Below, piece after piece: positions 4,651 through 58,440 of a DNA stretch of 64,000 bases (the first letter of the stretch is position 1; each line of letters starts with the position of its first letter). Position numbers and translations under genes: made by a program. This DNA is from Mytilus galloprovincialis (lineage: Eukaryota; Mollusca; Bivalvia; Mytilida; Mytilidae), in NCBI RefSeq assembly GCF_965363235.1, contig NC_134843.1:88755795-88819794 (forward strand), read 5' to 3'. The notes under the pieces were generated by a model. It had not been told where the DNA came from and did not search any database. It was given only the letters and a program-made list of their open reading frames with translations.

Positions 4651-4664
4651 GATATCAAAATTTA

Positions 4665-9160: not shown

Positions 9161-9164
9161 ATTG

Positions 9165-10611: not shown

Positions 10612-10654
10612 CATCCGGCTAGCGTTTCGTCTTCGAAAGACTCACCAGTGACGC
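10612..10654 (-). ncRNA. hammerhead ribozyme motif, decayed
   Basis: Minus strand: GCGTCA + CTGGTGA + GTC(TTTCGAA)GAC + GAAACGC, then divergent sequence. Core position 6 is changed and stem I no longer closes, so this is a fossil of the same family. Confidence 0.6.
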
Positions 10655-10934
10655 TCGAATAAAAAAGGGTCAAAAGGCCAAAAAAGGTGGGAAGTTGAAT
10701 AAGTTTCATTTAGAAAAAAATCCAATAGGTAACCACATCTTTGCGATAAACTAAGGCTTAAGTATTATATCAATTGAAGTCTTGGTTAGTGACTTGATCT
10801 AATAGCCCGCCATTAATTTTTAATAAGAGTCATGAAAAGAATCAATTCATCTGAAAAGTGTCAATTATTTTTTTTAATTAAGAAAGTATAAATTCAGTAG
10901 TTATAGAAAGAATTTTTTTAAAATTTGAATTTCA

Positions 10935-11215
10935 AAGCACTTCTGTGTTGACATGAATTGTCATTGATATGGTCATAATTATAAATTAACTGTTATCAAA
11001 ACTTTGAATTTGTTTAAAAATACTAACGCTTTTCTGCCTCAGGAATAGATTACTTTAGCTGTATTTGGTAAAAATTTTAGGAGGTTTTGGTCCTCAATGC
11101 TCTTCAACTTCGTACTTTATTTGACCTTTTAAACATTTTTGATTTGAGCGTCACTGATGAGTCTTTTGTAGACGATACGCACGTCTGGCATAAATATAAA
11201 ATATCAATCCTGGTT
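10935..11215 (+). mobile_element. retrozyme-like repeat, single decayed unit
   Basis: Carries CACTTCTGTGTTGACATGAA, CCTCAATGCTCTTCAACTT and a hammerhead at 11,148-11,191: GCGTCA + CTGATGA + GTC(TTTTGTA)GAC + GATA. The GAAA box is changed to GATA. Nothing was recognised from 11,216 to the exon at 11,917. Confidence 0.7.
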
Positions 11216-11916
11216 TCTATGATAAGTTTATTTATTAAAGCGTATGGTACAATGCAATTAAAAAACATTCTTTATTTCAATTCAAATAGCTTGAATGAAT
11301 GAAGCATGACCATCGCTATCATGTTAAAAAATGTCAATGATAAGATTGCTCTGATAATTCAATCCGAATTGAATACAAAAATCGGATGGGTTAATCTGTT
11401 TATCATCACAAACTTGTCACCGGAAAAGTTTATAATAATAATATTTCATTTGAGGGAATATAAACTTACGATTTTTATCTGCTATATATTTATTCTAAAT
11501 GATGAAATCGCGTAAGGGAGGAAACAAGCAAAGGAAAATAATCAAAGAACTCAAAAAAACAAAATGGTTTTCGTTTCTCGTATTTGCGTTTCACATATAC
11601 GATATAGCCTCAATTGGTAACAACTGGTTGCCATCACAAAGAAATAATAAACAATCCATTAGGATCAGCACAAGAATTTCACTATAACTATAAACGTTGA
11701 TAAGTTACTAGTATTTTAATAAAAGATTTAAAATTGACTTCCTCTGTTACCATATATAAAAGCCTTGCAAATCCAGTTTTTAAAGATATAGAGATGTTTT
11801 CCTTAATTAACAGTTTTCTCTATTAAGCAGCAAAACCACTTCTTGTCTTGTGATAAGATAAGAAAGTGTATATTTGTCAGGCATTTTAAACATGGCCAGA
11901 GATGTTTTTATTTCAG

Positions 11917-13182
11917 GACAGCGAATCACATTCAGGGAAAGAGTTTGTACTAGCATTTCCAGATGGCGCTAGAATTGGTAATTTGCGTTTGTACATAACA
12001 ACACCGGTAGATGGAACCTTCTTCCCTGTACACATCAAAACACCACTACTTAGTCATACGAATATGAAAGTAATAGTATCAAGCGGACAAGAAACCGTTG
12101 TTGAAATTCCGTCAGATCTGACCGTTTCCGATACTTCCAAAAGTTATAAGAGTATTCTTGTTCAAGCTGAAAATCTTATTGTACTATTCGCCTCAAATAT
12201 GCAGGCTGATAGTGGTGATTCCTTCATTGTATATCCAGTTGAAGTACTTAGTACTGAATACGTATCTGTAAATTTAGATTCAAAGAACGGTGCCCTTAAG
12301 TCAATGACTGCAATACTCGCTGTAAATGATCAGACTCTTGTTCACCTTAGTTTACCTGTCGGTTCATCAGTAACTTATAATGGCAATACCTATACATTTG
12401 GAAGTCAGTTATCGGTCAATTTGAGGAAATATGAGATATTTCAATTTTCATCTGAGGATGATCTATCAGGTACAACTATATTGTCAAATTATCCAATAGC
12501 AGTAATCAGTGGTCATCAGCTTGGTAATCCATCAGTTAGTTCGTTTACAACTAAAGATATGATCCTTGAAATGCTCATTCCATGGAAGTATTGGTCAACA
12601 CATTATATTGCGATCAGTAACCCTGTCTTTTCCTCCGGAGACGGCGAACTGATTCGTATCTTTACGCTGTGTGAGAAGGCTACTGTAATAATTGACAAAT
12701 CAGGAGTTCATTCACAAATCAAGATTGATCCCGCGTCATTTTACGAGTTTCCACTGGAATTAGCTAAATCAGCAGTAATAACCTCTGACAAACGTGTGCT
12801 CGTTTCGCAGGTATCATCCTCTAAACCCTTTTCTGGTTCTAAAAGAGGCGATCCGAGATCAATGTTACCGGCCCCATTGCATTCCTGGCTGAATGAATAC
12901 ACTTTTAGTTCACCTGGAAAGTCTAAAGGCGGGAGTTTTGAGCATGGGCTTGTTCTTGTAGCCTATAGTACGTCTGTTGATACAACAACTTTAGACAACA
13001 TGAGCTTACAATCATCAGTATGGCATACAATCGCTGGTACAAATTTGAAGTATACAGCTTTACCGTTATCTGAAGGAGATCATAAGTTGAAATGCGGAGG
13101 AATTTTGAAATGTTGGGGATATGTATTTGGAATCGGTGTGTACGAGGAATATGGAACATCTATTGGCAGGAGTTTTACAAAG
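11917..13182 (+). CDS. IgGFc-binding-protein-like exon (secreted)
   Basis: A 422-codon exon with acceptor TTTATTTCAG (AG at 11,915-11,916) and donor AAG|GTAAAA (GT at 13,183), phase 0 at both ends. The product starts DSESHSGKEFVLAFP and matches the IgGFc-binding protein N-terminal domain: the G-x-EF-x-x-AFP opening, the D-M-I-L-E-M-L-I-P-W-x-x-W segment at about 12,556-12,600, and a late CGG...CWGYVFG segment near 13,095-13,130. In this family the domain occurs in extracellular mucus and immune-type proteins, and bivalves carry many paralogues. Exons 14,072-14,099 and 14,793-15,025 follow in phase; 2,696-3,098 are the likely leader exons. There is no internal stop. The ATG at 11,902 lies in the intron and is not the start. 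Confidence 0.88.
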
Positions 13183-14071
13183 GTAAAATGATTTGAAATT
13201 TAGTCTCATGTTATAACCGAATTTGTTTAATGTATGTTCTTTGTGAATAAATTTCAGTTTTAATGAAGAAAATACAAATTTATAGATCTGTAAAAGTTCA
13301 TATGTTATACCAGAAAAATGTGGCTTGTTATTCAGGAGTATGTAAGCCTGGTATCTATGATTAGATTATTATCAAGTTTTTTTTATGCAGAAAACTGGAA
13401 TTCTAATGAAATGCATTAGTATCGATAATTTTCACTGGACGTTGACGAAGATTCTGAAGGGTTAGATTCGACGTTCTTCTAGTCCGTAACTAAGAAAGCC
13501 ACCATTTTGAATTCCAATATTTTTTTTTGCAGGTTATTTCTCAAGTAATAATCAAAGAAGTCACATTATGTTATTCAAAATATTCATTTTGTCTAATTTG
13601 AAACCATTCAGAAGCTTACGAAAAGTATAAATACGTCTACAGTACATGTTTGACATTAGGAGTATAATACTATGACGTCATATTGCATAGATACCAAAGA
13701 CAATGCAACAGTTTCGCGGACTTTTTCATTGATGGCATTATAAGCCCAAATATTTATCAAATGGAATTTATTTTAATATTTTACATTAGTTTGGAGATAT
13801 TAAGTGTATTGTATTTTAAGCTTGACTCCGCAAAACTTGATATAACTGTCGAAATTATCTGTTTAACTAGCTCCGCTAATCGTCGCTAGGTAAATTCTAC
13901 GTGCGACAGAAAAATCTACGATTACGAAGCCCAAGCTTAAAAGCAACACCGTTTTTTTGCTCGTACTTTTATTAACAATAAAGAAAGGGATTATCATTCT
14001 CTTACATATACTAATATAATAATAAAAATAAAAACGCAAGGTTGAATTCAATTACAATGTTTTATTTACAG
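13183..14071. other. intron
   Basis: Intron between the IgGFc-binding-like exon and the 28-nt exon. AT-rich, with no repeat that recurs clearly in this window. Confidence 0.6.
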
Positions 14072-14099
14072 AAAAAGACACCTGATGCAAACTTTATGG
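14072..14099 (+). CDS. 28-nt linker exon of the IgGFc-binding-like gene
   Basis: Acceptor TTTATTTACAG (AG at 14,070-14,071) and donor TGG|GTAAGT (GT at 14,100). It continues phase 0 as KKTPDANFM and leaves one G, so it ends in phase 1. The next exon supplies GA to make a Gly codon and stays open to a stop. Such small exons are easily missed by gene finders. Confidence 0.72.
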
Positions 14100-14792
14100 G
14101 TAAGTACATATCTTAAACAATTTCGACAGCAAAAAATCGGTCAAATAATTGATTTACTGATTAAAGGGCATATGGAAAAAATCTTTCTTTGTAATCAAAA
14201 TATTGTGAAACAACAAATGAACTTCGTCGTTTCTTTTTCTTCTTCACATGTTTAAATAATGATTCTGATAATGTATTCTGAAATTCTTTGTAGTCCTTTG
14301 AATAGCATGAAAACTCTTCTAACAATTTGAAGAAACTATATTTTGTTTGTATTATTGCAATTATTGAACTTCATAAAACAACACAATTCATAACTGAAGT
14401 AAAAACTTTCAAAGTAAATTAAGCAGACAGCCAAATAAAGCAATTGAGACCTTTTTTGCAATTTACGTTGATGGGATGCTTCCTATCAAATGTAGTACTA
14501 TAAGTAGTTTTTAAGATGATTGGAAAAGCAAAAGATCCGCCCTGATAAAAGGTCCAAACTGACTTGAAGTGGCTAACACGCTCCTCAATACTAGTCTATT
14601 TTGAACTAAATTATTACCCTTCTTTAATTTTATTAAAGAAAATGTTTACTGTTTGACTAATAAATCTAGTTTTGGATTAAGCTCGTTGGTGCCTTCAATT
14701 TAGATATGAAGATAGTTACAATCGTCAATATTTCAACCCAGTAGAGAAGTTCAAATTCAATAGATATATCTATATTTCCCATTTATTTTTAG

Positions 14793-15025
14793 GAAAAGTT
14801 ATCATCGAATTGGATGTGATAGACAATCAAATACTTTTTACAACACCAGTTTTCTCTACAACTGTCAAGTCACGCACTGAATGCGGCAAGATGTGTTTCT
14901 TGTATTCATGTACATTCCTCTCCTTTCGGTCTACAGATGGACTATGCTATCTTTATTCAGAAGATCAAACATGTACTCCAACAGTAGAATCATCTGATTT
15001 CAGACGCTATCATCTCAGAAAATAG
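14793..15025 (+). CDS. last exon, PAN/Apple-like domain
   Basis: Acceptor ATTTATTTTTAG (AG at 14,791-14,792). Joined in phase 1 it reads GKVIIELDVIDNQILF... to a stop at 15,023-15,025, about 77 residues. Five cysteines in the pattern C-x3-C-x5-C-x11-C-x8-C, with CTFLSFRSTDGLCYLY in the middle, resemble a PAN/Apple fold, which binds protein or carbohydrate outside the cell. The combination with an IgGFc-binding domain fits a secreted recognition protein. The reading frame also has an internal ATG at 14,810 that I do not regard as the start. Confidence 0.75.
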
Positions 15026-16475
15026 TGAATTATATATAATTAGTGTTGTAAAATTTTAATCCTTTTTCTCTTTCTACAATTTACCATTCTAATAGACGTG
15101 TTAGAAAAGTCGATACTACTGTTCGCGCTCGTGTTGGATGGACGATGAATACAATATGATATGGGGGTCATCTCCAAAATCATAAATACTCAATCGAGCG
15201 TTGATAAAGAACAAAAAATAATTATTAAATGTGAACTACGTGGTACATTTTTAAATTGAAGATAATTATAACAATACATGTAATTGTGATTAAAGAATGC
15301 AAAATATTATAAAACAGTAAGGCAAATCTTTACCTTTTGTGAAAAAAAGGGGGATGTTTTTATTATTTTACTCCGAATCAACAAATTCGTGCAAAAAACA
15401 AAGGAACAGGGTTTATGGCCGCTTGATCTGCCAAAGGAGACAACCTATCGTTTTGCTTTCATTCTTCTGGTAAGATTTAACAATCCAAAAAAAAAAGATG
15501 AAAAAAAAACTATTTTGGAAAACACAAATCCCCTCTTACACAAGATGAATGCTTGATGAATTATTTTAAAATGCAAGTTTTGGATTTTGTTTTTCCCTTG
15601 CCTAACAAACATAGCGTTGTATGATTGGGTAGCATTTGTTAAATGTCTTCCGAAAAGTCATGCACACATTCAACTGTTTGTTTTAGCTCGTTCCTTTGCT
15701 GTCTCCACAAAGTTCCAAACGACCCTGACTGTCTCTTAACGTCTTATTGCCTCGATACTCACATTTCTTTGATTTATTTTTTTTACATTTCTTTTTTCCC
15801 TCGGCGTTTACCGTCTTAAGTGATGTCTCTTATATGGTGTAATAATTGGTGAACAATTGACCTTTGAAAATGAATTGGGCTCTGTATTTTCATAATGGTA
15901 AAGTATATGCCAAGTTAAGTCAACATATTGAAACTATGACGGACTATGAAGAGTGTAGAGTGTTAACAAGAAAATCTAGATATTCATAAGGACTAAGTAT
16001 GAATCAAGTATGGTAAAAATCCTAGAACGATGTTGAATATAGAGTGTCAACAATTGTTTTACGGACCGAAGGACCTAATGGAAGCGAAAATACAGACAAA
16101 TGTTATTTTAACAATGACAATCGGGCTTAAAGGGTAGATTGAATTACCTTAGTGCAAGCCCGTTATAGGGCGTAACATTGTAGCTGCGGGAAACAATATC
16201 AACTGAAGCTAAGTTTGTCAAATGTCAACTGAAGCAAAGTTTGTCTTTATCTTTCTTTCAAGCATAATATTTAACAGTGGTAATGTTATACCAAAAAAAA
16301 AAATATACATGTTGAATATTGTTAAATTCGTTGTAGGTTCTTCTAATGTTTTGTATTTTATAAACGAACTGGACCCGAATGTCCTGGACAGATGAATGGT
16401 TACATACTGGTGCATCATCTTCGTGTGACAAGCAGGTTTTTTGTGCTTTTTTATGTGCTGTCTTTGTTTTTTTAC
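15026..16475. other. 3' flank, no gene recognised
   Basis: AT-rich sequence downstream of the stop. No repeat shared with the rest of the window was seen, apart from short A and T runs near 15,480-15,520 and 15,780. Confidence 0.5.
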
Positions 16476-16479
16476 GTGT

Positions 16480-16770
16480 TCGATTTTATTCTGTTGTTAG
16501 TCCCCACTTCGGTGTTGACATGAACATTAGTTATATAGTCATTTTTTATAAATTTACTGTTTGCAAGGGTTCGAATTATTCTAAATACAACTGGTGTTCT
16601 TGTCCAAGGAATAGATAAAATCAGCAAAATTTGGAGTCATCGGTGCCTTTCAACTTTGTACTTTCTTGGCTTTCTTTACTATTTTGATTTGGGCGTCGCT
16701 GGTGGGTCTTATGTAGACGAAGCACGCGGATTGTGTATAAGATTGTAGGCCTGGTACCTTTGATAACAAT
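16480..16770 (+). mobile_element. retrozyme-like repeat, decayed
   Basis: Contains CACTTCGGTGTTGACATGAAC and GGCCTGGTACCTTTGATAACA bracketing a hammerhead fossil at about 16,691-16,735 (GCGTCG, CTGGTGG, GTC/GAC stem II, GAAG). Several core positions are changed. Confidence 0.65.
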
Positions 16771-16904
16771 ACGCATGTCGAAATTTCCTATTGTATTGTT
16801 TATTTGTGTATTTCTCTGTCCGTAATGTTCTTACATTCATTTGTACTGTAGTCCTGTCATGTAATGTAATCATTTTAGTGTTGTATTTTACAATGCGCAA
16901 AAAT

Positions 16905-17170
16905 CCGCAAAACCAGGTTCAACCTACCATTTTTTTTAAACAAAAAAAAATGGTAGGTTGAACCAAATTTGTACAAAGTCAAGAAAATGGCAGTTGTTAT
17001 CTTATAGTTCGTTTCTGTGTGTGTTGCATTGTCGTTTTGTTTTTTTGTTGCTCTTCAGTGGCTCTGTTGTTTCATTGTTTGATGTGTTTACCTCAGTTTT
17101 AGTTTGTAACCCGGAATTGTTACCTCTCACTCGATTTACGACTTTCGAACGACCGTAAACTATTGTTGCC
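16905..17170 (+). repeat. dispersed repeat 'ACCAGGTTCAACCTACCA'
   Basis: Shares ACCAGGTTCAACC, GTGTGTGTTGCATT, CTCAGTTTTAGTTTGT and CTATTGTTGCCTTTATTTA with 58,715-59,050 (+) and, in reverse, with 25,095-25,210. The two homologous stretches CCATTTTTTTTAAAC and AAAAAATGGTAGGTTGAACC form a local hairpin at 16,915-16,962. Non-coding. Confidence 0.6.
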
Positions 17171-17524
17171 TTTATTTATCCAGTAACCTTTGGGGTATTC
17201 ATTCAGTAATTTTCATTTTCTTTGGTATTTATGCATCCATGGTTTTTAATTCCAAATGAAAGAATAGGACAAAAAGATAGAAATTGAACATCTATTTTGG
17301 CATATGTTATCTCGGACTTTAATGTAGGAAGAAAGGAATTCAAAACATTGTTCTAAAGTTTATGTAATATTTTTACCTTTTATGCCTAATGTTAAAATAA
17401 CACAATTAACTGTAAAGTCAATGTACATGTGAATTTATGTTGTGGTTTGTATGCTACACTTATATTTATATTTAGTTATTAAAATATAATGTACTATATT
17501 TTATATATGTATTTTTTTATAGTT

Positions 17525-17700
17525 ATCAAATGTACCAGGCTTATAATTTGATACGCCAAACGCGCGTTTCGTCTACAAAGACTCATCAGTGACGCTCAGT
17601 TCAAAATAGTTAGAAAGTCAAACAAGTATAAAAGTGTAACGCATTGAGGACCAAAAATTCCCAAAAGTTGCAATGCATAAATACGGCTAAGGTAATATAT
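17525..17700 (-). mobile_element. retrozyme-like repeat, one unit (-)
   Basis: Reverse complement of the hammerhead repeat. Motif at 17,553-17,595 (-): GCGTCA + CTGATGA + GTC(TTTGTA)GAC + GAAA + CGCGCGTT + TGGCGT. The core is intact; the cleavage triplet is GTT, which hammerheads accept less well than GTC. Flanks include GGTCCTCAATGCG on the minus strand. Confidence 0.75.
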
Positions 17701-17719
17701 GCCTAAACAAAAACAAAAT

Positions 17720-18290
17720 TCCATTATATATACAACGATGTGTGAACATAAAGAAACCGACATAAAAGGTAAAAATGTCAAAAATTGACGTACAGCAGCC
17801 AACATTGTGTTATAAACTCAATCACTATAAAACAAACAAATTATAACTAAGAAACACAAAAATGCATGTAGACAAAGCACATTAGCCAAAATGAAAGACA
17901 AGACTCTAAACATTTACCATAGCACATAACACAATGACGGGATGTGTAAGTGCAAAGCCAAGTCATGTGTAAAAAAGAAACAAAAAAGGCATTTAGAAAA
18001 AGCACATTAGCAAAAATGAAAGACACGAATGTATTAAAATTTTCAGTAACCAGTTTGGTCTGATGTGTAAATAACGGACAATTCCGACCCTATAAACGTT
18101 TGAGAGTGAAAAATATAACGTGAAAAGAAAAGACGATGGTGTCCGTCTTATTGATTTTTTTTTGTACTCAAAGTGGCCTAAAATTGAGAGAATATGGCAC
18201 TCAAAAGAGAAGTTATCCAAGAAAAATGCTAGTTCACCATACCTTGCAAGAAACAGACACGTATGCATCACAAGCACAAGGGAAAAATAA
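17720..18290. repeat. dispersed repeat blocks, non-coding
   Basis: The phrases CAACGATGTGTGAACATAAAG and GTACAGCAGCCAACATTGTGTTA match 25,590-25,680. An internal near-duplication (AAAGCACATTAGCCAAAATGAAAGACA-like) occurs at about 17,873 and 17,998, 125 bp apart. No gene. Confidence 0.5.
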
Positions 18291-18304
18291 TAGCTTTATT
18301 AAAG

Positions 18305-19480
18305 TGATGAGAAAGATACCAAAGGGGATTTGAGATACACTGACAACGCCATGGCCAAAAAAAAAAAAAAAACAGAAAAAACCCTAAAATACAGTATACA
18401 AAACACAAAATAGAACTAAAAACCTGGTCCTACCAAAACTGATAGTGATCGTGATTTCATGTTCTCAGGATTAAAGACCTGGTCCTACCAAAACTGATAG
18501 TGATCGTGATTTCATGTTCTCAGGATTAAAGACCTGGTCCTACAAAAACTGATAGTGCTCGTGATTTCTAGTTCTCAGAACTAAAGACCTGGTCCTACCA
18601 AAACTGATAGTGATCGTGATTTCATGTTCTCAGGAATTGTATAGAGATACTGCTTCGCATGAAGCATCCGTTGTGTTACTCATTTAAGTACAAACCCGGT
18701 GATTAGTTTAATTTGGTCGGTCACATTTAGGTGTAAAGGATGGCGGGATTATGATTACGACGATTGGAAAAAAGAAAAATAACAAAAATGCAGAACATCA
18801 AGAAAAATGCCACACAGAAAATACCTCAACATAAATGCGTCATCTCTTAAACAGATTTTCCATTACGGTTGACCAACTCGTAAAATGTTCGAAAGGGATG
18901 ATGTCAATTTCACCACTTGTAAAATTTGGTTTGATATCATATCTGTGAACAGCAACCCTCTACAAGAAAATTATAATAGGATACGCATACTCTCAAATAT
19001 CGTATCGACTGTGAGATATATACACCATACGCAGTCGCTGCTGGAATGTTGATACATAGAAATAGAAAGTTCACAATTTGGAAGCTAAAATCACTTAATT
19101 TGTTGTAAAGTTTGGTCGCAACTGACCCTAATTGTCAATTATGAGATGATAGCCACGATATGAGACAGCATTAATTGCATTTGTTGTATCATTTATGTCA
19201 GGTTCGATTAAATGGCTGCGTACAACATAATCACCGAACTTTGAATTACTTAGATGAGAGGATATCATCTATGTAGCGGAAGGTTATGTATGTCTAGGAA
19301 GCTCCTGTATGCGGTCAGTCTAATATGCATAAATGAATGATTAAGCCGGCAAGAAGAGGAGCACGGTTGGTTTCCATGAAGATGCCGATTGACAAACACG
19401 TCCTCCAAAAATAACAGATATGTGGTCAATCAAAAAATCAGTCATCTTGACAAGATGTTAGTATATACTTTGGCCACTCC
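18305..19480 (-). mobile_element. RT family 1 element, decayed copy (-)
   Basis: On the minus strand this carries the RT C-terminal region (19,400 to 18,840), the 3' UTR and the 3' end, in the same order as the copy at 38.6-37.45 kb. It is old and interrupted many times. A 55-bp tandem array lies inside its 3' UTR. Confidence 0.65.
18423..18642. repeat. 55-bp tandem array, 4 units
   Basis: CCTGGTCCTACCAAAACTG recurs at 18,423, 18,478, 18,533 and 18,588, exact 55-bp steps, with two or three differences in the third unit. It lies within the 3' UTR of the RT family 1 copy. Confidence 0.88.
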
Positions 19481-30819: not shown

Positions 30820-31235
30820 TTATTACATTGGTTGCAATGAATTACATTGATTTCCCAGTTAAATAAAAACCGATAATTTCACATGTGAAATAAACGTGGT
30901 TATTTCACTCTCTGACGTCATACAACAATAGGCGTTGTCAAGACGTCGATAACGTCGGATCAAAACAAATTGTCAATGCGTAGGAAAAAGATATAGTTCC
31001 TTACATTTTCTACATTAATTTCATAAAAAAAGCCATTTGCCAATGTAATAAAAAGAATAACTAATCGCCGTATTTGAATATAAAAAATAAGACAACTTGT
31101 GACCGAACGCCGCTATGGATTAAACTCGTGCTGCGCACTCGTTTAATCCATGCGTCGTTCGGTCACGCGTTGTCTTATTTTTGATATTCAAATACGGCGA
31201 TTAGTTATACTATAATCACCAACACACTGATTACA
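30820..31235. mobile_element. insertion in the LINE with 152-bp hairpin
   Basis: Interrupts the endonuclease between DGYGGG and the segment leading to VPELDTN. Its right part (31,057-31,208) is a nearly perfect palindrome: ATAACTAATCGCCGTATTTG with CAAATACGGCGATTAGTTAT, and GTGACCGAACG with CGTTCGGTCAC, closing on GTGC-TGC-GCAC. Boundaries are approximate. Confidence 0.65.
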
Positions 31236-31241
31236 TCACAG

Positions 31242-31730
31242 GTGCCTGAACTAGACACAAATTGTGAATTAATCTGGGCAAAAATAACCCCAAAAGGAAA
31301 TAAAACCACTTATCTTGGAGCATACTATAGGCCACCATCAGACAAAGGCGAATCACTACAACATCTAAGTACCTCACTTAATAGGATATGCAACATATCC
31401 AGTGCAAATATCATGCTCAATGGCGATTTCAATTTAGGCAATATTGACTGGTCAAATTCATCGGTAGTACCTAGTAAACCAGATGCTTCTCTTCAGCAAC
31501 ACATATTAGACATACTACAAGATCACATTCTCACACAGGTAGTTGACAAACAAACAAGAAATGACCGCACACTTGATCTACTGTGCATGTCAAATCCATC
31601 CCTAGTAAACAGAGTAGAAACATTACCACTACTAGGAGACCATGACATAATTTTCATTGAAATTAACCATTTCCTTTCGAAAGCTAAACAGTCACCACAC
31701 AAGGTATTCATTTACAAGAAAGCAGACTAG
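31242..31730 (+). pseudogene. LINE endonuclease domain (partial)
   Basis: 162 residues. AYYRPP, LNGDFN (the metal-binding N-G-D-F-N box) and LLGDHDIIFIEI (the S/G-D-H box) are the conserved signatures of the LINE apurinic-type endonuclease, which nicks target DNA to prime reverse transcription. The N-terminal part of the domain lies upstream of the insertion. Confidence 0.85.
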
Positions 31731-40909: not shown

Positions 40910-41760
40910 ATTGGCTTATATGTCGATCAAAGGGAGGCGAAATATACTAAAGAAATATTCAAACTCATAAGTCGAAAACAAACTGACAATTCCATGGTAA
41001 AAATACCATACTCACTGCCTCATTACATTAACCCTTCATAAAAGCTTGTAAGTAAATCAAGTGTTATGGAACAAATACGTGAAAATCAATCGAGTTTTGA
41101 GCGATATACGAATACATCAAAGCTTGAGGTCATATTAAATCGTTATCGGGCATATTATACTGCTCTTGTTGTATGCATTTAGTTAGAGAAAACAAAATAC
41201 ACCAAAAGAAACATTTGTTTTTTAAGAATTTAATACCATATATCAACTTTGCAGGAATTGAAACCATTATTGTTATTGAATTCACTTAAATCACGCTATG
41301 AAAAATAAAAAAAAATGATGCACAAATGTTAAATTTGAACATAGATATCTTAATCTATAAACATTTATAGAATAATCGTTATACACAAACCAGAAATAGA
41401 ACAATCCTACGTTTTGAAAATTTTCATGAGAAAATGTGTTATTTATAAATAGTTTACAGTAACTCTATTTTTAGAAAAAGGCAAGTTTTGTTTCCGTCGT
41501 GAATTGGTTCTTATTTATTTAGTTGACAACAGCAGGTGGTAGTTACAGACATGCTATTTATAATTATGTATGTTACATTATCAGTTTGTAGCAGATACTA
41601 TTACGTTACAAAATAGATGTTTTTCGAAAATGATATGTTGACTGTAAATTGTGTCAAGGTAGAGATAACATTTGATGATCTTTGCGGTTTTCAAAATCTA
41701 ATATTTTCACTTATCTTTTTTATTTCTATTAAAACAAGTAAAACAGAGAATTTATGATCA
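40910..41760 (+). repeat. segmental unit R1 (first of three)
   Basis: Shares TTGGCTTATATGTCGATC, GAATACATCAAAGCTTGAGG, TTTGCAGGAATTGAAACC, GTTGACTGTAAATTGTGTC with units R2 (43,190-43,847 plus 48,587-48,800) and R3 (49,660-50,160). A small insert resembling the RT family 1 3' end interrupts it at about 40,930-41,030. Contains a conserved mini-exon candidate at 41,254-41,307. It includes the unoccupied version of the site that the 4.74-kb element entered in R2 (41,638-41,660). Confidence 0.75.
41254..41307 (+). CDS. candidate terminal mini-exon (unit R1)
   Basis: After a TTTGCAG acceptor the sequence reads ELKPLLLLNSLKSRYEK then TAA. The same frame, acceptor and stop recur in R2 (about 43,448) and, more diverged, in R3 (about 49,681, ELKSMLLNPHNSRYEI-stop). 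Conservation of the frame in three copies suggests a former or present last coding exon; no upstream exon could be joined with confidence. Confidence 0.3.
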
Positions 41761-43190
41761 GTGCTTGCAAATTCAAAATGTCCACGTAGAGGAATCGTCC
41801 ACAAACTTCGTTCCTTTCGCAAAGTCTGCATAACAACCATAGACCATCATATGTTGGCATAAATATATCGACATCTACTTCAAGCTCGACTTCAAGTCAA
41901 TATTTTTTCATATCGGATTGTTTTGATATTGCACACTATTTCGCAATATTTTTCATAACTTATTACGGTATCGCCGCACAAGTCGACATAAAATACATCG
42001 ATAAGTATAATATAACGCAACAAGTCAATAGCAACAACAACAAAAAATATACCTATAGTCACGCTTCCGTATGTCTGTAATAATGGGGAAAATGAAGATA
42101 CACATCTTTTCTTATTACAATTTAATAGATTGACCTCGAAATGAGAAATATATAAAAATAAATAACTGTTATTTTTAAAAATAGTATAACGTTTACACTG
42201 TTGACAAAAGTTCTCTACTTGTAAATTGGTAAATAATAACTCTGCATTATTACTTAATTAGACTGTCTTCCTCTTTCATGTCAGAGTGTTTAGATATAAG
42301 GATGTGAAATAATATGATATATCTATATGTAACTTTACTAAGTTACATGTAAATTAAAATAATTATATATGCAATGGGTCTTAACCATTTATCGTTAATG
42401 AGTTTGTGCCAATTAAATGTTTGTATTTGTATTTGTATTAAACCATAGTCCTAATCGCACTAAATATAAACATGCATAGATTGTGTTATATAGAGAATAA
42501 AACATGACAAAATCCAAGTGTCCGATAACAAACCGAGAGCCGAATACCCGGGGACTGATATAAGTCGAAGGTGATACAGCATGTGATACCGATTTGATCA
42601 TGAATTCATAATTTTTCATATATTTTAACAGAGGAATTATTTTTCCAAATTGAAGTCTTCATCCGAAAAACAAAATTGGTTGAGGATTGATAAAGCAACA
42701 AATATGAATTTTACATCACGCAAAAGGCAGAAATAGGGCCGACTTTTTAGGTTGAACACTTGTTTTACATATATTTTGTTCGTTTAAACCAAGGATCCAT
42801 GTACATCACCGAAGATGCAATTTACAAGTATACATTAAAAACAGACACATTGTTGGATCCATGGTGAAGCATATCTGATGAAAGGATCTGCCATCAACAC
42901 TTATTTTTCCAAATTACAATTTCAAAACATAGATTAAGAATTTTTATTCTAATGTAATTCCTTTGTATCAATGTTTCTGATTGGATGATAGTAAGCGTAC
43001 AATTCTCTATCTCCTTGTCTGTAACTAAGGAAGCCGACATTTTGAATTGCGGAATGTATGGACATGTAATTTCTACAATGATAAGCAAAAAACTCAATTG
43101 TTGCACCTAGAAATCGTCTTTTTAACAAATTTTATTGCATTCTGAAGCGGTTAAGAAGCCAGAAAACGTTCGGTGGCAACGTTTGACGCC
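41761..43190. other. spacer between units R1 and R2
   Basis: No gene recognised. GGATCCATG occurs in inverted copies at about 42,794 and 42,855 flanking 50 bp. Confidence 0.4.
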
Positions 43191-43847
43191 GGAAGCAAAT
43201 TGGCTTATATGCCGATCTTAGCCCTTACTGAAAGTTTGTAGGTAAATCAAGTGTAATGGAACAGATTCGTGAAAATCAATCAAGTTTTGAGCTGAATACA
43301 TCAAAGCTTGAGGTCATATTAAATCGTTATCGGGCGTATTATACTGCTCTTGTTGTATGTATTTAGAGAAAACAAAATACACCAAAAGAAACAAGTGAAT
43401 TATTTAAGATTTGTTTCAAGAAATCAATACATTATATCAGCTTTGCAGGAATTGAAACCATTATTGTTATTAAATTCACTTAAATCACGCAATGAAAAAT
43501 AAAAAAAAAAATAATGCGCAAATGTTAAATTTGAACATAGATATTTTAATCTATAAACATTTATATACTATCGTTATACATGTTATACACAAACCAATAA
43601 TAGTTCAATCTTACGTGTTGAAAATTATAAGTTTACAGTAACTGAAAAAAAACCAAGTTTTGTTTCCTTCGTGAATAAGTACTTATATATTTAGTTGACA
43701 ACCTCAGGTTGCAGTTACAGAGATGCGATTTTTAATAATTTTATTTTACATCATCAGTTTGTAACAGGTAATATTATTACTTTTCGATTCCGGAAATAAC
43801 GAAAGTTACAAAATAAATGTTTTTCAAAAGTGATGTGTTGACTGTAA
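43190..43847 (+). repeat. segmental unit R2, left part
   Basis: Closely similar to R1 (ACATCAAAGCTTGAGGTCAT, TTATCGGGCGTATTATACTG). Ends at GTTGACTGTAA, where the 4.74-kb element begins; the unit resumes at 48,587 with TAAATTGTGTCAAGG. Mini-exon ELKPLLLLNSLKSRNEK-stop lies at about 43,448-43,501. Confidence 0.75.
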
Positions 43848-44516
43848 GGTGGCAGGTACCAGTTCTTAGCCTCTGTGCCATTGTCCCACGCAGAAAATTA
43901 GTATTAAAAAACTTTGGCTATCTTTGTCACTTCAGTGAGCAGTGATAAATAAAAAGATCTAAAATTCTAAGTTTGCATTACACAATGTTACCTTTCCTGA
44001 TTACATTGATATGCAACTTTCATGGTTTTATCCTTGTTTGACATGAAAAATCTAGAGTCCCATATACATACTGTTTGAAGGCTAACTATACATTGTTATC
44101 CTGTTTTCCATTGGTCAAAACAGGTGGTTATTTAAGGACACTGGAAAGTGCCAAATTTTGATGGTAAGGATAGGTTCAGCTGTTGTTTATTCGAGTTGCA
44201 AGTGATTAAATTAGATATTTTTGAATGATTTTCTTGTCAGTAATTAGCAGGTTTGATGCACTGAGGTCTGGAATAGGGTGCCAAATTAAAAAATTGTTGG
44301 GATTTTGTCCGTTAACTGGGAAAAGTAGGTAATGCGGGATAAGGAAACCACGTAAAAAACATTGATCAGAAGTACTTCACTATCAATTTTAATCAATTCT
44401 GAACACCAAAAAATTATCAAAGCATGTTTATATCTTTCAGATTTATTTACAGAATTTTTTTTAAATTTGGTCTACACTTGCACGTGAATTAGTGAAAAAA
44501 ACTTGTTTCTGCCACC
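43848..44516 (+). repeat. left 669-bp direct terminal repeat
   Basis: Begins GGTGGCAG and ends CTGCCACC, so the repeat has its own short inverted ends. Identical to 47,918-48,586 except at 44,503 (T for G), where the left copy's inner end has lost one of the TIR-matching bases. Non-coding. Confidence 0.92.
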
Positions 44517-44540
44517 ATTAACATACATGATGAAATTAAA

Positions 44541-44770
44541 ATGAGAGACACAAGGTTACTTTCACCCTTTAAAAATAATTTCAAGTGTTCTAACCCTAAA
44601 TCGACCACAAAAACAGTAAGAAAATACAGTTTCAGGGATGAACTCATGTTTTTTGTAAATGCCTTGAAATTCAAGGAAGATAACTCTATTCAGATACTGA
44701 TTTTCAAGTTTTATACACAAGTTGAAAGAGAGTGTTTGTTGCAAAAATGTTACTTCCAGTTGACTTTTCA
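44541..44770 (+). CDS. His-Me nuclease gene, probable exon 1
   Basis: ATG at 44,541 begins 76 codons (MRDTRLLSPFKNNFKC...) ending in phase 2 at CA|GTAAGC (GT at 44,771). The intron of 161 nt ends at AAATGTAG (AG at 44,930-44,931), where the next exon resumes in phase 2. The joined protein of about 193 residues passes smoothly into LTQIEKNKLFSVFET before the nuclease domain. Exon 1 is rich in K, R and aromatic residues and has no recognised domain; DNA binding is a guess from charge. Confidence 0.55.
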
Positions 44771-44931
44771 GTAAGCATATGATATTACAAAATGTTACAG
44801 ATGCATGATAAACATTATTTACCCTGTATCAATGTTTCTCTGCTTATATTTTCAGTGGAAAACAGCATTTTTTTGTGTATTCATAGTGTAAACCAGTAAA
44901 TACCCCAAATGTCTTACTTTTTTAAATGTAG

Positions 44932-45283
44932 CCTTACACAAATTGAAAAAAATAAGCTTTTCTCTGTTTTTGAAACAAAAACTATATATGTTAGTGGATG
45001 TTTGATCTGGACAGGGCAACAGAAAAAAGGCTATGGAGTTTATGAAACCAGATTTAGAGGGAAAAAAATTAAAATTTTTGCTCATAGACTCAGCTACTTT
45101 ATGAATGACAATTTTAAACCAATTGATCATAAATTCAATGTTTCACATGTTTGTCACAATGAACTATGTGTAAGGAAAGACCATTTATCTTTAGAACCAC
45201 AAAGTGTAAATAACAGGCGCAAGATTTGCAAAAATAATGCAGAATGTTTGTTGCACTATGGATACGCAAAATGTATATTGTAA
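44932..45283 (+). CDS. His-Me finger (HNH) endonuclease domain, exon 2
   Basis: Reads SGCLIWTGQQKKGYGVYE, KIFAHRLSYFMND, VSHVCHNELCVRKDHLSLEP, NNRRKICKNNAEC, ending in a stop at 45,281-45,283. The C-L-I-W-T-G...GYG...AHR-x-S-Y opening and the SH-V-C-H-N...C...DHL-x-L-x-P core with N-N-x-R-K-x-C are the hallmarks of the zinc-loop homing-endonuclease type of His-Me finger. The H of SHVCHN is the expected general base, and later C and H residues bind zinc. It lies inside the element with the direct repeats, convergent with the transposase (195 nt between stops). A cleavage role in transposition or target choice is inference. The in-frame ATG at 44,909 is an alternative start if the intron is not real. 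Confidence 0.8.
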
Positions 45284-45285
45284 CT

Positions 45286-45560
45286 TCAGGTAAAGTCTCT
45301 CCTGTTAGCATATTGATGTTCGTTAATTATGTTTTCATTTGCACAGTTAAATAATGAGTTTGCCATCAACTTCCTGTTTCCTTTGTTTCGCCTATATTTG
45401 AATCTGATAAACTTGTACTGACGAGTAGTTTTTCTGAGTGTATGATATTCACCCGTTTTGTCCCGCAGTCTCATATTTTTAATAAATGGATCCGTCTTTC
45501 TGTATTTTAGTCCTATGGCACTTGCAAGTAATATACAGGATTTCCAGAGATGAGGAATGG
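45286..45560 (-). CDS. transposase C-terminal continuation in another frame
   Basis: Overlapping minus frame: ILLASAIGLKYRKTDPFIKN, TGEYHTLRKTTRQYKFIRFK, RRNKGNRKLM. Basic and colinear with the end of the transposase, and it begins where the main frame loses resemblance. Whether it is joined by frameshift or splicing, or marks damage, cannot be told from one copy. Confidence 0.5.
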
Positions 45561-47161
45561 ACGGCAGAATGACATAAACCTTCAAAATTTCTTGTCCAAA
45601 TAGTATTTTTTGGTGCAAATGAAAATACCTTACTGTGTAAACTTTCACACTTGTTGGTTGTTGAAAGACGGGAAATTTTCTGTATCTCAGAGTTGGTAAA
45701 GTTTTTTGCTAAGACTGATTTCAATTTAATTATGTCATTCTGGTTCAGTTCCAAATGCCTGGCATATGGCAAGTGGCTTGTATTGTACATGGATAGATGA
45801 GCAGAGCAAACAATAGAATCTCTTCTACAGTTTCTATGATCATTTGCAAAACATGGAATAACATTTTCAACTGCTCTCCTACCGCGCTCAATAAAACTGC
45901 ACTCATTGGCAGAGAGCCTTTTAATCCGAGTGAACTCTAGTCTTATCCTGGCCCTTATACCACTTGCCAACTTTCTTACAAAAATATCCTTGTCAAATCC
46001 ATGCATTGAGCTGGTTAGTTTTATATTTCTCAAATGTTTTTGTAATGTTCTCAACTTGTGGACAAGGCATTTATAGTGGCGAATCGGTATGTTATTAGCT
46101 CTAGAATAATCATTTACAGATTTTGCAATTTGAGCAGAGGCATCACTGGTAACAGAACGTACCTTTAAAATTTTCTTACTGTTTATTTCAGTTAAATGTT
46201 GTTTTACAAATTTCCCTTCAGTTGAAGCCATTGACTCGTCAGTACTGTAGTTTTTTTTACATTTGTCATTGTTATGGTTACAATTTAATTTTGGACATAA
46301 TGTATTTGCTGCTATCATATTTACAGGTAGCTTCCTACTTGTATTTTGCTCTATAAAAGGACAGAAGGTTTGCGATGCTGCTTCAAACCCAGCTTGGGGG
46401 CGATTGTTAAATGAAGAATCTACCTCCGCATCAAAAGAATTGTCTTGTCCTGCTAATTCTAGGACTTTTTTCACATATTCTTGGTTCTCGATCATTGTTT
46501 TTTTATTCATGTCAACCATTAAATCTGACATCTTGTTGACCTTTCGTTGCATAACGGTCCGACTTAAACATTGAATGTTCAGGCAAGACATTATTGTAAT
46601 TATATCTGAAATACCTACTTTTGATTTTATCACTGGTATCAACAATGCATTATTTAAGACACCACTATCCGGGCCTCTAGGAGACTTCATTGTTGAATAA
46701 AGTTTTACAGGTTCAGATGAAAAGTCACAATTTGTACATACTACCTTTACTGAAACACAAATACCTAACCTTTTCGACATGACTACATCTGGATTAGGGA
46801 ACGAACAATTATGCGGCATAAATCCAATGATTAGATTTGTTAATTTTTTTAATGTTACAATTACATTTTCCTCTGAATCTTCAGATACTGAAAAATCATC
46901 CAAATTTTCACATTCCTTATCTTTTTCAGGTCTCATTTTTGAAGGAACCAGGTGTGTAGTGTCTGCTGTTTGGCTATCACTCAGAACTTTTACAGCATCA
47001 AAGTATTCCTGTGAATTTGGACGTTTAAAATCAGAAGATAAAGAACAGTTTCCACTTGATTTGTAAGAATCCTTGTGTATCGGAAAGTGTTTATGTCCCT
47101 TCTGGAACATTGTTTTTTGCTTTGAACGATTTCTTAAGAAACTTCGACGAGAAAAAACCAT
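45479..47161 (-). CDS. MULE-like DDE transposase
   Basis: 560 codons from ATG at 47,161. Features: basic N-terminus (SRRSFLRNRSKQK); C142-x2-C145; NNALLIPVIKSKVG about 170-183; first acidic residue D248 in VDSSFNNRPQAGFE; cysteine-rich patch 289-301; second D340 in SVTSDASAQIAKSV; HYKCLVHKLRTL 362-373; CFANDHRNCRRDSIVC 437-452; third E506 in NKCESLHSKVFSFAPKN. The order D...D...E with an N-x-C-E-S-x-H box matches Mutator-like transposases of metazoan type. The C-terminus appears to continue in another frame: from about 45,556 the overlapping minus frame reads LWKSCILLASAIGLKYRKTDPF and on to 45,286, better matching a basic family C-terminus than the in-frame tail. So there is either a one-base change, a frameshift, or splicing. 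Confidence 0.8.
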   Translation of the reverse strand: MVFSRRSFLRNRSKQKTMFQKGHKHFPIHKDSYKSSGNCSLSSDFKRPNSQEYFDAVKVLSDSQTADTTHLVPSKMRPEKDKECENLDDFSVSEDSEENVIVTLKKLTNLIIGFMPHNCSFPNPDVVMSKRLGICVSVKVVCTNCDFSSEPVKLYSTMKSPRGPDSGVLNNALLIPVIKSKVGISDIITIMSCLNIQCLSRTVMQRKVNKMSDLMVDMNKKTMIENQEYVKKVLELAGQDNSFDAEVDSSFNNRPQAGFEAASQTFCPFIEQNTSRKLPVNMIAANTLCPKLNCNHNNDKCKKNYSTDESMASTEGKFVKQHLTEINSKKILKVRSVTSDASAQIAKSVNDYSRANNIPIRHYKCLVHKLRTLQKHLRNIKLTSSMHGFDKDIFVRKLASGIRARIRLEFTRIKRLSANECSFIERGRRAVENVIPCFANDHRNCRRDSIVCSAHLSMYNTSHLPYARHLELNQNDIIKLKSVLAKNFTNSEIQKISRLSTTNKCESLHSKVFSFAPKNTIWTRNFEGLCHSAVHSSSLEILYITCKCHRTKIQKDGSIY

Positions 47162-47917
47162 TTTAAATTATAAATGACTATCACTTTTTCAACTTGTGTG
47201 TATCAAATGGAAAGGAATTTAATAATGGGTCATTTGAAATAGAAGAGTGCAATAAGAATTAAAAATAGAAAGGATGGGGTTGCAACACCTCTGAATCATA
47301 TGTGTTGATAGATTTGGAACTTTATGTCCTATGCTGAGTCATTTTAAAGAGGCTGATAGATGCTGTCAAAATATTTACTAATTACCTCCCTTAGACTGTC
47401 AGATATTAAACCTAACATAATAAATCAATGTGAGGTAAATAGATACTGAATGTAACATTATTTATAAATAAAAGCAATTAAGTCTTCATTTCAAATGACC
47501 TTTTTAACAAATGGGTACATGTCTTGGATAAAATTATACTTTCATTACATATTTTAAAGTGAAAATCTCTGAAAATTTGTAAAGTGGGGTAATATTTTTC
47601 ATATTTTTTCATACACATGTAATGTTCTTGGTCTTTTTACATGTTTTCTTTCAATAAAATTTACTGCATAATCAATCTATTTGGTTTTTATTTGTGCCTA
47701 ACACTTTGAAGTATTTTTTAAGCATTTTTTTGTGATTGTCGGTGACAGATGACATTTTGAATGAAATGCCGCAAAAACACCACCTTTCTTTGAAAGCCTG
47801 TAAAATTTGTTTCATTAAGAAATATAACTCTCATTTAAGATTTTTTAATTCTTAAAAGACTGATAAACATGTACATAACATCAAAAGTCAAACACATGCA
47901 ATATAAAAAATGCTTAA
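47162..47917 (-). promoter_or_regulatory. transposase upstream region
   Basis: 756 bp between the transposase ATG and the right terminal repeat. Non-coding and AT-rich, with no second copy in the window. The transposase promoter should lie here or in the 669-bp repeat; no TATA box could be singled out. Confidence 0.4.
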
Positions 47918-48586
47918 GGTGGCAGGTACCAGTTCTTAGCCTCTGTGCCATTGTCCCACGCAGAAAATTAGTATTAAAAAACTTTGGCTATCTTTGTCAC
48001 TTCAGTGAGCAGTGATAAATAAAAAGATCTAAAATTCTAAGTTTGCATTACACAATGTTACCTTTCCTGATTACATTGATATGCAACTTTCATGGTTTTA
48101 TCCTTGTTTGACATGAAAAATCTAGAGTCCCATATACATACTGTTTGAAGGCTAACTATACATTGTTATCCTGTTTTCCATTGGTCAAAACAGGTGGTTA
48201 TTTAAGGACACTGGAAAGTGCCAAATTTTGATGGTAAGGATAGGTTCAGCTGTTGTTTATTCGAGTTGCAAGTGATTAAATTAGATATTTTTGAATGATT
48301 TTCTTGTCAGTAATTAGCAGGTTTGATGCACTGAGGTCTGGAATAGGGTGCCAAATTAAAAAATTGTTGGGATTTTGTCCGTTAACTGGGAAAAGTAGGT
48401 AATGCGGGATAAGGAAACCACGTAAAAAACATTGATCAGAAGTACTTCACTATCAATTTTAATCAATTCTGAACACCAAAAAATTATCAAAGCATGTTTA
48501 TATCTTTCAGATTTATTTACAGAATTTTTTTTAAATTTGGTCTACACTTGCACGTGAATTAGTGAAAAAAACTGGTTTCTGCCACC
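47918..48586 (+). repeat. right 669-bp direct terminal repeat
   Basis: Same orientation as the left copy. Preceded by TTAA (47,914-47,917) and followed by TAA (48,587), so this repeat alone is also bracketed by TAA. Its right end supplies the intact outer terminus of the element. Confidence 0.92.
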
Positions 48587-48900
48587 TAAATTGTGTCAAG
48601 GTAGAGTTAACATTTGAACATTTGATGACCTTGGCGATTTTTCAAATCTTATATTTTTCACTTGACCTTTTATATTTCTACTGTAACAAGAAAAATAAAA
48701 AGTTGTAATCAGTTTTTAAAAATAAAATATAAACGCACAGGAATCTTCTACAAACTTAGTGTAACTTTTTTCATTTATTACATCAGTGTTTTTTTTTTTA
48801 TCATTGTATAAATTTTAAATTGCTTATTCGTATCAACCGTTACAATGTGATTCATTACAATCTATTTATATCGCCTTCAATAAGAGTGTATTTGTTAAAT
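48587..48900 (+). repeat. segmental unit R2, right part
   Basis: Resumes TAAATTGTGTCAAGGTAGAG, parallel to R1 at 41,644 and R3 at 50,080, then diverges after about 200 bp. A C/G-rich patch GACCTCGGCTCCGGGCTCCGG lies just beyond at 48,938. Confidence 0.65.
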
Positions 48901-49655
48901 GTCAAATAAATCATGTTAATCAGGTGGTACTCCGGTTGACCTCGGCTCCGGGCTCCGGCTGAACCGGTCCGCCATTCCATCTATAGTTTGGCGCATATGT
49001 TAACTAAATTCATAAAGTGTAAACATGCACACGCGTAACGTTTTACCTGCAATGTAAATACAAAAGAGCTTTCTAGTTGTTTATAGAGAAGTTGACATTA
49101 ATTTGGAAAGTTGAAATCATCACAATGTAGGTAATGCTCTGTAAAAATCGCTTTTTGTGACACTTCTTTTTCTCGATTTCCGATGGAAAATAACAAAACA
49201 GAACAAAAAGGCATACTTAATATAATTTTGGGCAAACAATTCGAGTATTGAGTATATTAACGCTTTAAAGCTTTAACATCATATTTAATTTTTCCTGTAT
49301 CATTTATTAAACAAAAGCAAGACTCGCGTCATAGAGAGAATATTAGACAAATACACCATCATTTAAATGTAAATTGTTTACGTTTTCCCTATGGAACTCA
49401 ATTGACACTTTTTTGAATCTCAATTAAAGCCGGCCAAATTTAAATGATGATTCATTAAGAGAATGCTTACGTAGAGAATATACCTTATTCTTTACTTTGA
49501 AATATTATAATAACTGGATGTATGCTTATTGTACACGCATCATTGTCAAAATAATGAAATTTTATGCGACTCTTACAAGTGAGAGGTTCATAAAATCAGA
49601 TTCAATCCACCATTTTCTACAGAAGAACTTTGAAATTTCCCTCGACGTTCGGTAT
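48901..49655. other. spacer, no gene recognised
   Basis: AT-rich, non-coding. Confidence 0.4.
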
Positions 49656-49659
49656 TTTT

Positions 49660-50160
49660 GTGATTTACTTTTAATCTAGCAGGAATTGAAATCAATGCTA
49701 TTGAATCCACATAACTCACGCTATGAAATATAAATAATAAGTGCAAGCATAACATTTAAACATAGATATTAAGTTTCACCATTTATAGAATAATTGTTTT
49801 GTGTAAACTATTTATTGTACAATACCTTATTTGTGTAAAATATTAACAAGAATAAGACAAGTATACAGTAACTCACAGATTTTTTTTCGTTTCTGAATGG
49901 GTACGTTATACACAGTTGGCAACAGTAGGTAAATTCTACAAAGATGCGATTTCAAATAAATTATGAAAGATTATCAGTATGTAATAGCTCACATCTATTT
50001 TCGTTTCAAGGAATAGTATAGTTACGTGAGTTTATTCTTACACAAACCTATTTTTCGAAAATAATGTTTTTACTATTAATTGTCTCAAGGTAGAGATAAT
50101 TTATGATCCTGGCGATTTTTCAAATCTGAAATTTTCAATTAGTTTCTACAGTCAACACAT
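49660..50160 (+). repeat. segmental unit R3 (most diverged)
   Basis: CAGGAATTGAAATCAATGCT, AACATAGATATTAAG, GGCAACAGTAGGTAAATTC, CTCAAGGTAGAGATAA parallel R1 and R2. About 1.5 kb beyond R2 when the 4.74-kb element is subtracted. Contains the mini-exon frame at 49,681. Confidence 0.65.
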
Positions 50161-56189: not shown

Positions 56190-56672
56190 CTTTATCAAGT
56201 ATTAACCAAGCAGCCTAATCCATCGCCCGGTTGCTACAAACAATGTGGTCGAAGGAATTGTTTGTGTTGTAAAGCTGCCAATACAAGCAGTTCTTTCATC
56301 AGCTCCGTTACTAAACAAAATTATACCATCTACTCTAATTCCAACTGTAAAACGGAGAACTCAATTTATATATTAACATGTGACACTTGTGGCATTCAGT
56401 ATGTGGGAGAAACAATGGACAAATTTAATATTCGGCTCAATAACCATCGTTCATCGTACAAAACCAACAAAAACTGTCCTCTCACAAGACATCTTCGTTC
56501 AACGAAACATCCTTTTGATAATGTCACTTTCCAAATTATAGAAGTCAACACCGAATGGGACACCACGGCGAGAAGGAGAAGAGAAAACTTTTGGATCCAC
56601 CAACTCCACACTTTAGAACCTGATGGTCTTAACGAAAAAGACGAAAAAAGATACAGGAAAGATAAAGAATAA
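56190..56672 (+). CDS. GIY-YIG endonuclease (Penelope-like), partial
   Basis: Open from 56,190 to the stop at 56,670-56,672, about 160 residues, with no ATG start needed if it is the tail of a longer protein. The linker PSPGCYKQCGRRNCLCC is the cysteine-rich motif that precedes the domain in Penelope-like elements. The domain: SIYILTCDTCGIQYVGETMD (the GIY...YVG box), FNIRLNNHRSSY (catalytic Arg), CPLTRHLRSTKHPFDNVTF, and RRRRENFWIHQLHTLEPDGLNE, whose E is the expected metal-binding glutamate. Ends in a basic tail. All key residues are visible, so the domain looks intact although the reverse transcriptase is absent. The first 10 codons overlap the left inverted repeat. Confidence 0.85.
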   Translation, partial: LYQVLTKQPNPSPGCYKQCGRRNCLCCKAANTSSSFISSVTKQNYTIYSNSNCKTENSIYILTCDTCGIQYVGETMDKFNIRLNNHRSSYKTNKNCPLTRHLRSTKHPFDNVTFQIIEVNTEWDTTARRRRENFWIHQLHTLEPDGLNEKDEKRYRKDKE

Positions 56673-57639: not shown

Positions 57640-58440
57640 CTCTTCCTCACTGCATAATACTCGATTGGTATGAGTTACTTCTCAGGTTCATTACCTCTAC
57701 ATAACGATCTTGTTGTATGGGTCACTCCTCATAGTCAACACCACTGCATGACGATCAAGTTGTATATTTCACTCCTCATATTCAACATCACTGCATGACG
57801 ATCAAGTTGTATATTTCACTCCTCATAGTCAAAACCACTGCACGACGATCAAGTTTTATATTTCACTCCTCGTAGTCAACACCACTGCACGACGAACAAG
57901 TTGTATGGGTCACTCCTCATAGTCAGCACCACTGCACGACGATCAAGTTGTATATTTCATTCCTCATAGTCAACACCACTGCACGACGATCAAGTTGTAT
58001 ATTTCACTCCTCATAGTCAACACCACTGCACGACGATCAAGTTGTATATTTCACTCCTCATAGTCAACACCACGGTACGACGATCAAAATGTATATTTCA
58101 CTCCTCATAGTCAACACCACTGCATGACGATCAAGTTGTATATTTCACTCCTCATAGTCAACACCACTGCACGACGATCAAGTTGTATATTTCACTCCTC
58201 ATAGTCAACACCACTGCACGACGATCAAGTTGTATATTTCACTCCTCATAGTCAACACCACGGTACGACGATCAAAATGTATATTTCACTCCTCATAGTC
58301 AACACCACTGCTTGACGATCAAGTCGTATATTTCACTCCTCATAGTCAACATCACTGCGTGAAAACTGAGTTGTACAGTTCACTATCAGCTTCATTACCA
58401 CTTCATGATGATCAAGTTACTAGGTTCACTCCTCTTGGTC
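57640..58440. repeat. 47-bp minisatellite, about 16 units, with higher order
   Basis: Unit contains CACTCCTCATAGTCAACACC and ACTGCACGACGATCAAGTTG. A variant unit with CGGTACGACGATCAAAATG appears at 58,073 and 58,261, 188 bp (four units) apart, so part of the array expanded as a four-unit block. Outer units are more diverged. Confidence 0.9.

Follow-up and report, generated by a model that had tools for sequence, protein, structure and literature searches.

A composite DNA element was analyzed in a 64,000-bp stretch of the mussel Mytilus galloprovincialis (contig NC_134843.1, positions 88,755,795 to 88,819,794 of the forward strand), which is referred to here as the window and whose own numbering is used throughout. 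The element, with a total length of 4,739 bp, consists of two long terminal direct repeats (LTDRs) around an interior (INT) that carries a transposase gene and a nuclease gene, and this LTDR-INT-LTDR unit was compared with the KolobokP lineage of DNA transposons. The features of the locus are the following.

41451-41799, + strand: paralogous unit with an empty insertion site (TAA at 41645-41647), from self-alignment
43845-43847: left target site duplication TAA, flank GACTGTAA; a single TAA at the empty paralogous site
43848-44516, + strand: first LTDR, 669 bp, whose own inverted termini are GGTGGCAG...CTGCCACC, from self-comparison
44517-47917: INT, 3,401 bp, beginning with ATTAAC and ending with GCTTAA on the + strand
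44909-45283, + strand: His-Me finger nuclease (His-Cys box, I-PpoI-like), 124 aa; PF05551, E 2.8e-13, conserved His and Cys
45289-45546, - strand: C-terminal transposase segment, displaced into a different frame; residues 542-627 of homologue P0001, 97.7% identity
45479-47161, - strand: open reading frame (ORF) of the DDD/E transposase, 560 aa, departing from the frame of P0001 near 45545; PF20700, E 3e-36
47918-48586, + strand: second LTDR, 669 bp, differing at one base from the first, by self-comparison
48587-48589: right target site duplication TAA, flank TAAATTGTG

Layout of the element and its insertion site

The two direct repeats differ at a single base (repeat position 657), which gives an identity of 99.85%, and a chance origin of the pair was dismissed because of this identity and the length of 669 bp. 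Both inverted termini are present on each repeat; in the first one, 13 of the 16 terminal bases are inverted-complementary and the first eight match perfectly. Therefore, each LTDR is a small transposon in itself. The ends are GG...CC, fitting the pattern RR..YY.

The element is bounded by a TAA duplication (GACTG-TAA on the left, TAA-ATTGTG on the right). The paralogous stretch has 74% identity to the two flanks when these are joined; it reads GACTGTAAATTGTG and contains no insert, and in the self-alignment of the window two alignments overlap there by exactly three bases, which are the shared target TAA. The first LTDR is followed on its right by ATT instead of TAA, and the second LTDR has TAA at either side. 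Beyond the element, 41028-43847 and 48587-50141 are diverged copies (about 64-77% identical) of one unit; two of the copies lie about 2.2 kb apart, and one of these received the KolobokP insertion.

No reverse transcriptase or other retroviral domain was detected by Pfam in the four interior ORFs scanned (nine ORFs are listed for 43000-49500). These results confirm what was seen in a first-pass annotation made from the letters alone, which had described the near-identical direct repeats, the TAA duplication with its empty paralogous site and the lack of a reverse transcriptase; the inverted termini, which it had placed at the outer ends of the element, are there as well, with the addition that each repeat has both. 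From the near-identical repeats it had also concluded that the insertion was recent. The likeness does suggest a young insertion, but the LTDRs could also have been kept alike by gene conversion or circle recombination.

The two genes and the assignment to KolobokP

The transposase ORF matches the Pfam family named "Mutator-like transposase" (PF20700). Of 48 homologues detected, 35 were aligned with the window protein, and in this alignment of 36 proteins (residues numbered from the one after Met) the columns of D247, D339 and E505 are invariant, so that the DDE triad is kept. The CCHC set C288-C293-H295-C300 that follows the first D is invariant as well, H295 nearly so, as are C364xxH367 (the C/DxxH motif) and a second zinc finger, C436-H441-C444-C451. 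The nearest homologue, P0001 (627 aa), shows 97% identity in the alignment. The window frame leaves P0001 near 45545, and therefore the window transposase is without its normal C-terminus, barring an assembly error. This frame shift, like the presence of both inverted termini on each repeat, was a detail absent from the first-pass annotation. A scan of viral contigs with the transposase gave four pattern matches, none of which was confirmed.

The nuclease gene is convergent with the transposase gene, on the opposite strand, and its product matches PF05551 (zinc-binding region of homing endonucleases) above the family cut-off, with the zinc-binding His-Me pattern SHxCHN..C....HL..E....N. The sole molecule matched in the PDB was I-PpoI, weakly and over the catalytic box (E 1.2 with the single sequence, E 0.12 with a profile). 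The residues equivalent, through profile alignment, to S97, H98, H110, E114 and N119 of I-PpoI (PMC9587614) are kept in the four sequences aligned (window, P0049, P0050 and P0052; P0051 was dropped, its C-terminal half not being alignable).

A transposon with this architecture has been described in animals as KolobokP, a lineage of Kolobok with the layout LTDR-INT-LTDR (Kojima and Bao, Mob DNA 2022;13:24, PMC9587614). According to that paper, KolobokP LTDRs measure about 450 or about 660 bp, each has terminal inverted repeats (TIRs) of up to 18 bp and RR..YY ends, and the target duplications are of 3-4 or 4-5 bp. The lineage encodes a DDD/E transposase and, downstream on the complementary strand, an I-PpoI-like nuclease; solo LTDRs and multimers of the form (LTDR-INT)n-LTDR accompany it, nonautonomous families of 1,738-3,261 bp are mentioned, 228 families are catalogued, and the lineage was found in many bivalves, including M. 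galloprovincialis and M. coruscus. Kolobok is marked by C/DxxH, by a CCHC set behind the first D and by a zinc finger ahead of the E (PMC9587614).

The window element shares with KolobokP the layout, the LTDR class of about 660 bp, the short TIRs on each repeat, the RR..YY ends, a duplication within 3-5 bp and both genes, as well as solo LTDRs and a bivalve host of the genus Mytilus. All of the testable features agree, except that no multimer was found for its family, and nothing of substance separates the two beyond the single full copy found and the shifted transposase frame. It is thus practically certain, in our judgment, that the element is a KolobokP DNA transposon, with two 669-bp LTDRs around an INT that encodes a Kolobok transposase and an I-PpoI-like nuclease. 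The first-pass annotation was right to place a DDE transposase and a His-Me nuclease in one DNA element, and its statement that the combination fits no superfamily must be withdrawn: the element is of an already known kind, described in 2022, and no new transposon type is established.

Several points weigh against this assignment. The TTAA duplication that is the hallmark of Kolobok is absent and a 3-bp TAA is found instead, within the 3-5 bp reported for KolobokP (PMC9587614). The assignment was made by comparison with the published description. A multimer of the window family was not seen, and only one full copy was found, with an INT query of the first 963 of 3,401 bp. The match of the nuclease in the PDB is weak, and its AlphaFold model, built from four sequences, is poor (mean predicted local distance difference test score, pLDDT, 53). 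Finally, the transposase frame appears to be broken in the window copy, which by itself may not move now.

Other known systems share fewer of these features. The Kolobok lineages Kol0, KolobokE, KolobokH and KolobokD have in common with the element the DDD/E transposase, C/DxxH and the zinc-finger signature, but they are described as lacking LTDRs and encoding other accessory proteins, in a superfamily whose duplication is usually TTAA (PMC9587614). I-PpoI and other His-Cys box homing endonucleases share the zinc-binding His-Me finger pattern; enzymes of the I-PpoI type are encoded by a group I intron, whereas here the gene belongs to a DNA transposon. Bacterial composite transposons and the IS3/IS256 copy-out elements likewise enclose an interior between a pair of mobile end units, and the footprints of LTDR excision have been likened to IS3/IS256 circles (PMC9587614); in the mussel, by contrast, the transposase lies in the interior and not in the end units, and the host is eukaryotic.

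Copies in the genome and alternative origins

The assembly from which the window comes (1,384,861,812 bases) was searched with the LTDR, the transposase and the INT. The LTDR was found at 15 places, including the two of the window, the loci L003 and L004, and more diverged pieces. L003 is a solo LTDR with 99% identity and TAA/TAA flanks, and L004 is another with 96% identity and TTA/TTA flanks; no INT match was found within 1.5 kb on either side of these two. At a third locus, L008 (locus positions 1501-1810, reverse strand), the LTDR has lost a large internal piece, retains both inverted ends and has a TGA duplication, a structure that would follow if single LTDRs were mobile. L008 also resembles a short non-autonomous derivative.

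The transposase search gave 79 matches (78 scored of 257 candidates), and among the matches scored only the window copy showed high identity over the full length. Identity falls to 43% in the next long match and is 69% in a 90-residue fragment on contig C11. With the first 963 of the 3,401 bp of the INT as a query, the window copy alone was complete, accompanied by three fragments. One composite copy of the window family was therefore found in its assembly, together with solo LTDRs. The anatomy of the element and its empty site show insertion with a 3-bp duplication, and the solo LTDRs bear duplications of their own.

An origin in two steps is unlikely, though it fares best among the alternatives. 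A solo LTDR would have been inserted and a circle with one LTDR and the INT would then have recombined into it, as in model b1 of Kojima and Bao (PMC9587614); the product would still be a KolobokP. The second LTDR alone is flanked by TAA on both sides, solo LTDRs exist in the genome, and recombination also predicts near-identical LTDRs. However, the single insertion of the whole unit accounts equally well for the flanks and the empty site, which makes the additional step unnecessary, and the ends of the INT do not separate the two origins.

Two independent insertions of miniature inverted-repeat transposable elements (MITEs), which happened to flank an unrelated transposase gene, would explain the complete inverted termini on each repeat and the solo copies elsewhere. 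This origin, which the first-pass annotation had itself named as a refutation of its reading, is extremely improbable: the repeats agree at all but one of their 669 positions, the empty site is matched by the outer flanks alone, with one TAA shared, and the first repeat has ATT on its right. It is refuted by the recurrence of the paired-repeat layout, both in other families of this genome and in the 228 published ones (PMC9587614).

There is hardly more room for a Mutator-like element (MULE), in spite of the Pfam name of the transposase family and its match at E 3e-36. PF20700 matches all 36 of the aligned relatives, and therefore the name alone cannot decide between MULE and Kolobok. MULE duplications are usually of 8-11 bp and the one observed is of 3 bp, a discrepancy that had already been pointed out in the first-pass annotation and that holds with TAA at the empty site; moreover, the Kolobok zinc-finger signature is present, and the published lineage with the same architecture is a Kolobok. 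A long terminal repeat (LTR) retrotransposon in which the reverse transcriptase was lost and a transposase acquired by capture has the long direct terminal repeats as the sole point in its favor and can be set aside almost entirely, being refuted by the match to KolobokP, with repeats that are GG..CC rather than TG..CA and have inverted ends on each, and with no retroviral domain in the four interior ORFs scanned.

Tandem arrays and the putative role of the nuclease

KolobokP relatives were also sought with the nuclease, which gave 150 scored matches of 219 candidates. Among them, 93 lie within 15 arrays and 57 stand alone, arrays being grouped by the same contig and strand with neighbors at most 6 kb apart; the C12 spacings recur on two small contigs, C61 and C219, which may be second versions of the C12 array, so that arrays may be double-counted. 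Paired repeats around a nuclease-bearing interior recur in other families of the genome. In the arrays of C12 (64936644-64987078) and C61, units that carry both transposase and nuclease are spaced at about 4060 and 3591 bp, and in C12, C61 and C11 the two spacing values are about 460-470 bp apart, i.e., an LTDR length.

In the one pair of units compared in the C12 array, the LTDR-bearing and the shorter, LTDR-less unit differ by the LTDR plus or minus 3 bp. When this LTDR is read as AGGAAG...TTCCT, it is gone together with three flanking bases of one side, which fits the published footprints (1-5 bases at one side, with a loss of 3 or 4 bp where INT meets INT; PMC9587614). When it is read as GACAGG...CCTGTC, three LTDR bases are left behind. 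The sequence fits both readings and the LTDR is gone in either; the match to the published footprint hinges on the placement of the LTDR ends. Arrays and LTDR-less units thus exist in other families of this genome.

Taken together, the transposase most likely pairs the two outer LTDR ends and moves the entire LTDR-INT-LTDR into a 3-bp target, TAA in this case. It could also mobilize a single LTDR, giving rise to solo LTDRs, and would act on any two compatible LTDR ends; the missing LTDRs of the array units would have been excised. The nuclease probably cuts the LTDR or abutted ends, which would lead to recombination or unequal exchange between LTDRs and so to multimers and restored composites. 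Multimerization driven by the nuclease is the proposal of Kojima and Bao, who state that experiment is awaited (PMC9587614).

Recognition of the LTDR edge by the nuclease through an I-PpoI-like junction was considered and rejected. The INT/second-LTDR junction GCTTAA/GGTGGC of the window copy resembles the I-PpoI site; a GGTnGC start occurs in only two of nine LTDR-end sets (GGTGGC in the window, GGTTGC in L041). The other starts are GGTTAC (L044), GGTTAC (L045), GGTGTA (L022 group), GGGGTA (L052), GGCCC (L047/L048, outer ends placed by eye), GGGTGG (L034, tentative) and, in the C12 array, AGGAAG or GACAGG, with ambiguous placement; L010/L013, L023, L031, L032/L039, L043, L049 and L051 are left out of this comparison. 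What we take to be the 21-base I-PpoI site in rDNA has no exact match in the assembly.

The nuclease ORF was also found in 2.02-kb units of contig C62, in 2.2-kb units of contig C7 and in the monomers L020, L021, L022 and L029, monomers of this kind being placed between LTDRs. No transposase was detected by tblastn with 47 transposases in the C62 and C7 units tested or in these four monomers. The same search detected a transposase in L031, L039, L040 and L041, and in L030 (42 hits), a relative of the C62 group; therefore, the test is able to see even distant transposases. The C62 array (880-19368, including L015-L019 and L024-L027) consists of at least ten LTDR-bearing units, each about 2.02 kb long and set head to tail, with one more unit near 83 kb; the 84-kb contig is not wholly array, its regions at 40-44 kb and 65-67 kb having no match to the unit. 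On C7 there are six head-to-tail units, whose LTDR was placed tentatively.

In the C62 array, all nine units examined have the same 1-base deletion near the start of the nuclease frame. In a strict set of five copies, four nonsynonymous changes at 299 sites were counted against four synonymous ones at 73 (one-sided Fisher p 0.051), or against 37 noncoding changes at 1193 sites (p 0.063); in a set of seven nuclease-only copies the counts were nine and seven (p 0.022), and in all of these tests related copies do not supply independent changes. The pairwise ratio of nonsynonymous to synonymous rates (dN/dS, pairs above the 0.03 cut) was 0.00-0.49, save for two pairs with L012 (1.00 and 1.53), a copy that carries an in-frame stop. 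The ratios of L030, the most diverged member, were 0.15-0.35; this locus shows a transposase and is not a nuclease-only unit. Changes in the nuclease-only ORFs thus seem to lean weakly to synonymous ones, with the L012 pairs pointing the opposite way. No mention of nuclease-only families was found in PMC9587614 from abstract through methods.

A tentative explanation, which we hold to be possible rather than probable, is that the KolobokP nuclease alone can drive tandem amplification, as a satellite propelled by a homing endonuclease, through unequal exchange induced by its cuts and with transposition borrowed from relatives.

Elsewhere in the window, 57704-58358 is a tandem repeat whose 47-bp unit occurs in about 14 copies, with 91% matches. 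By eye, the ORF at 31185-31730 looks like a non-LTR retroelement endonuclease and that at 56190-56672 like a GIY-YIG nuclease (Penelope-like) domain.

The locus provides a tidy example of a KolobokP copy adjoining its own empty site, and the mussel genome offers material for testing the published idea of multimerization by the nuclease. If it is true that the action of the nuclease makes the nuclease-only arrays grow, this would be a homing endonuclease making satellite DNA in an animal.

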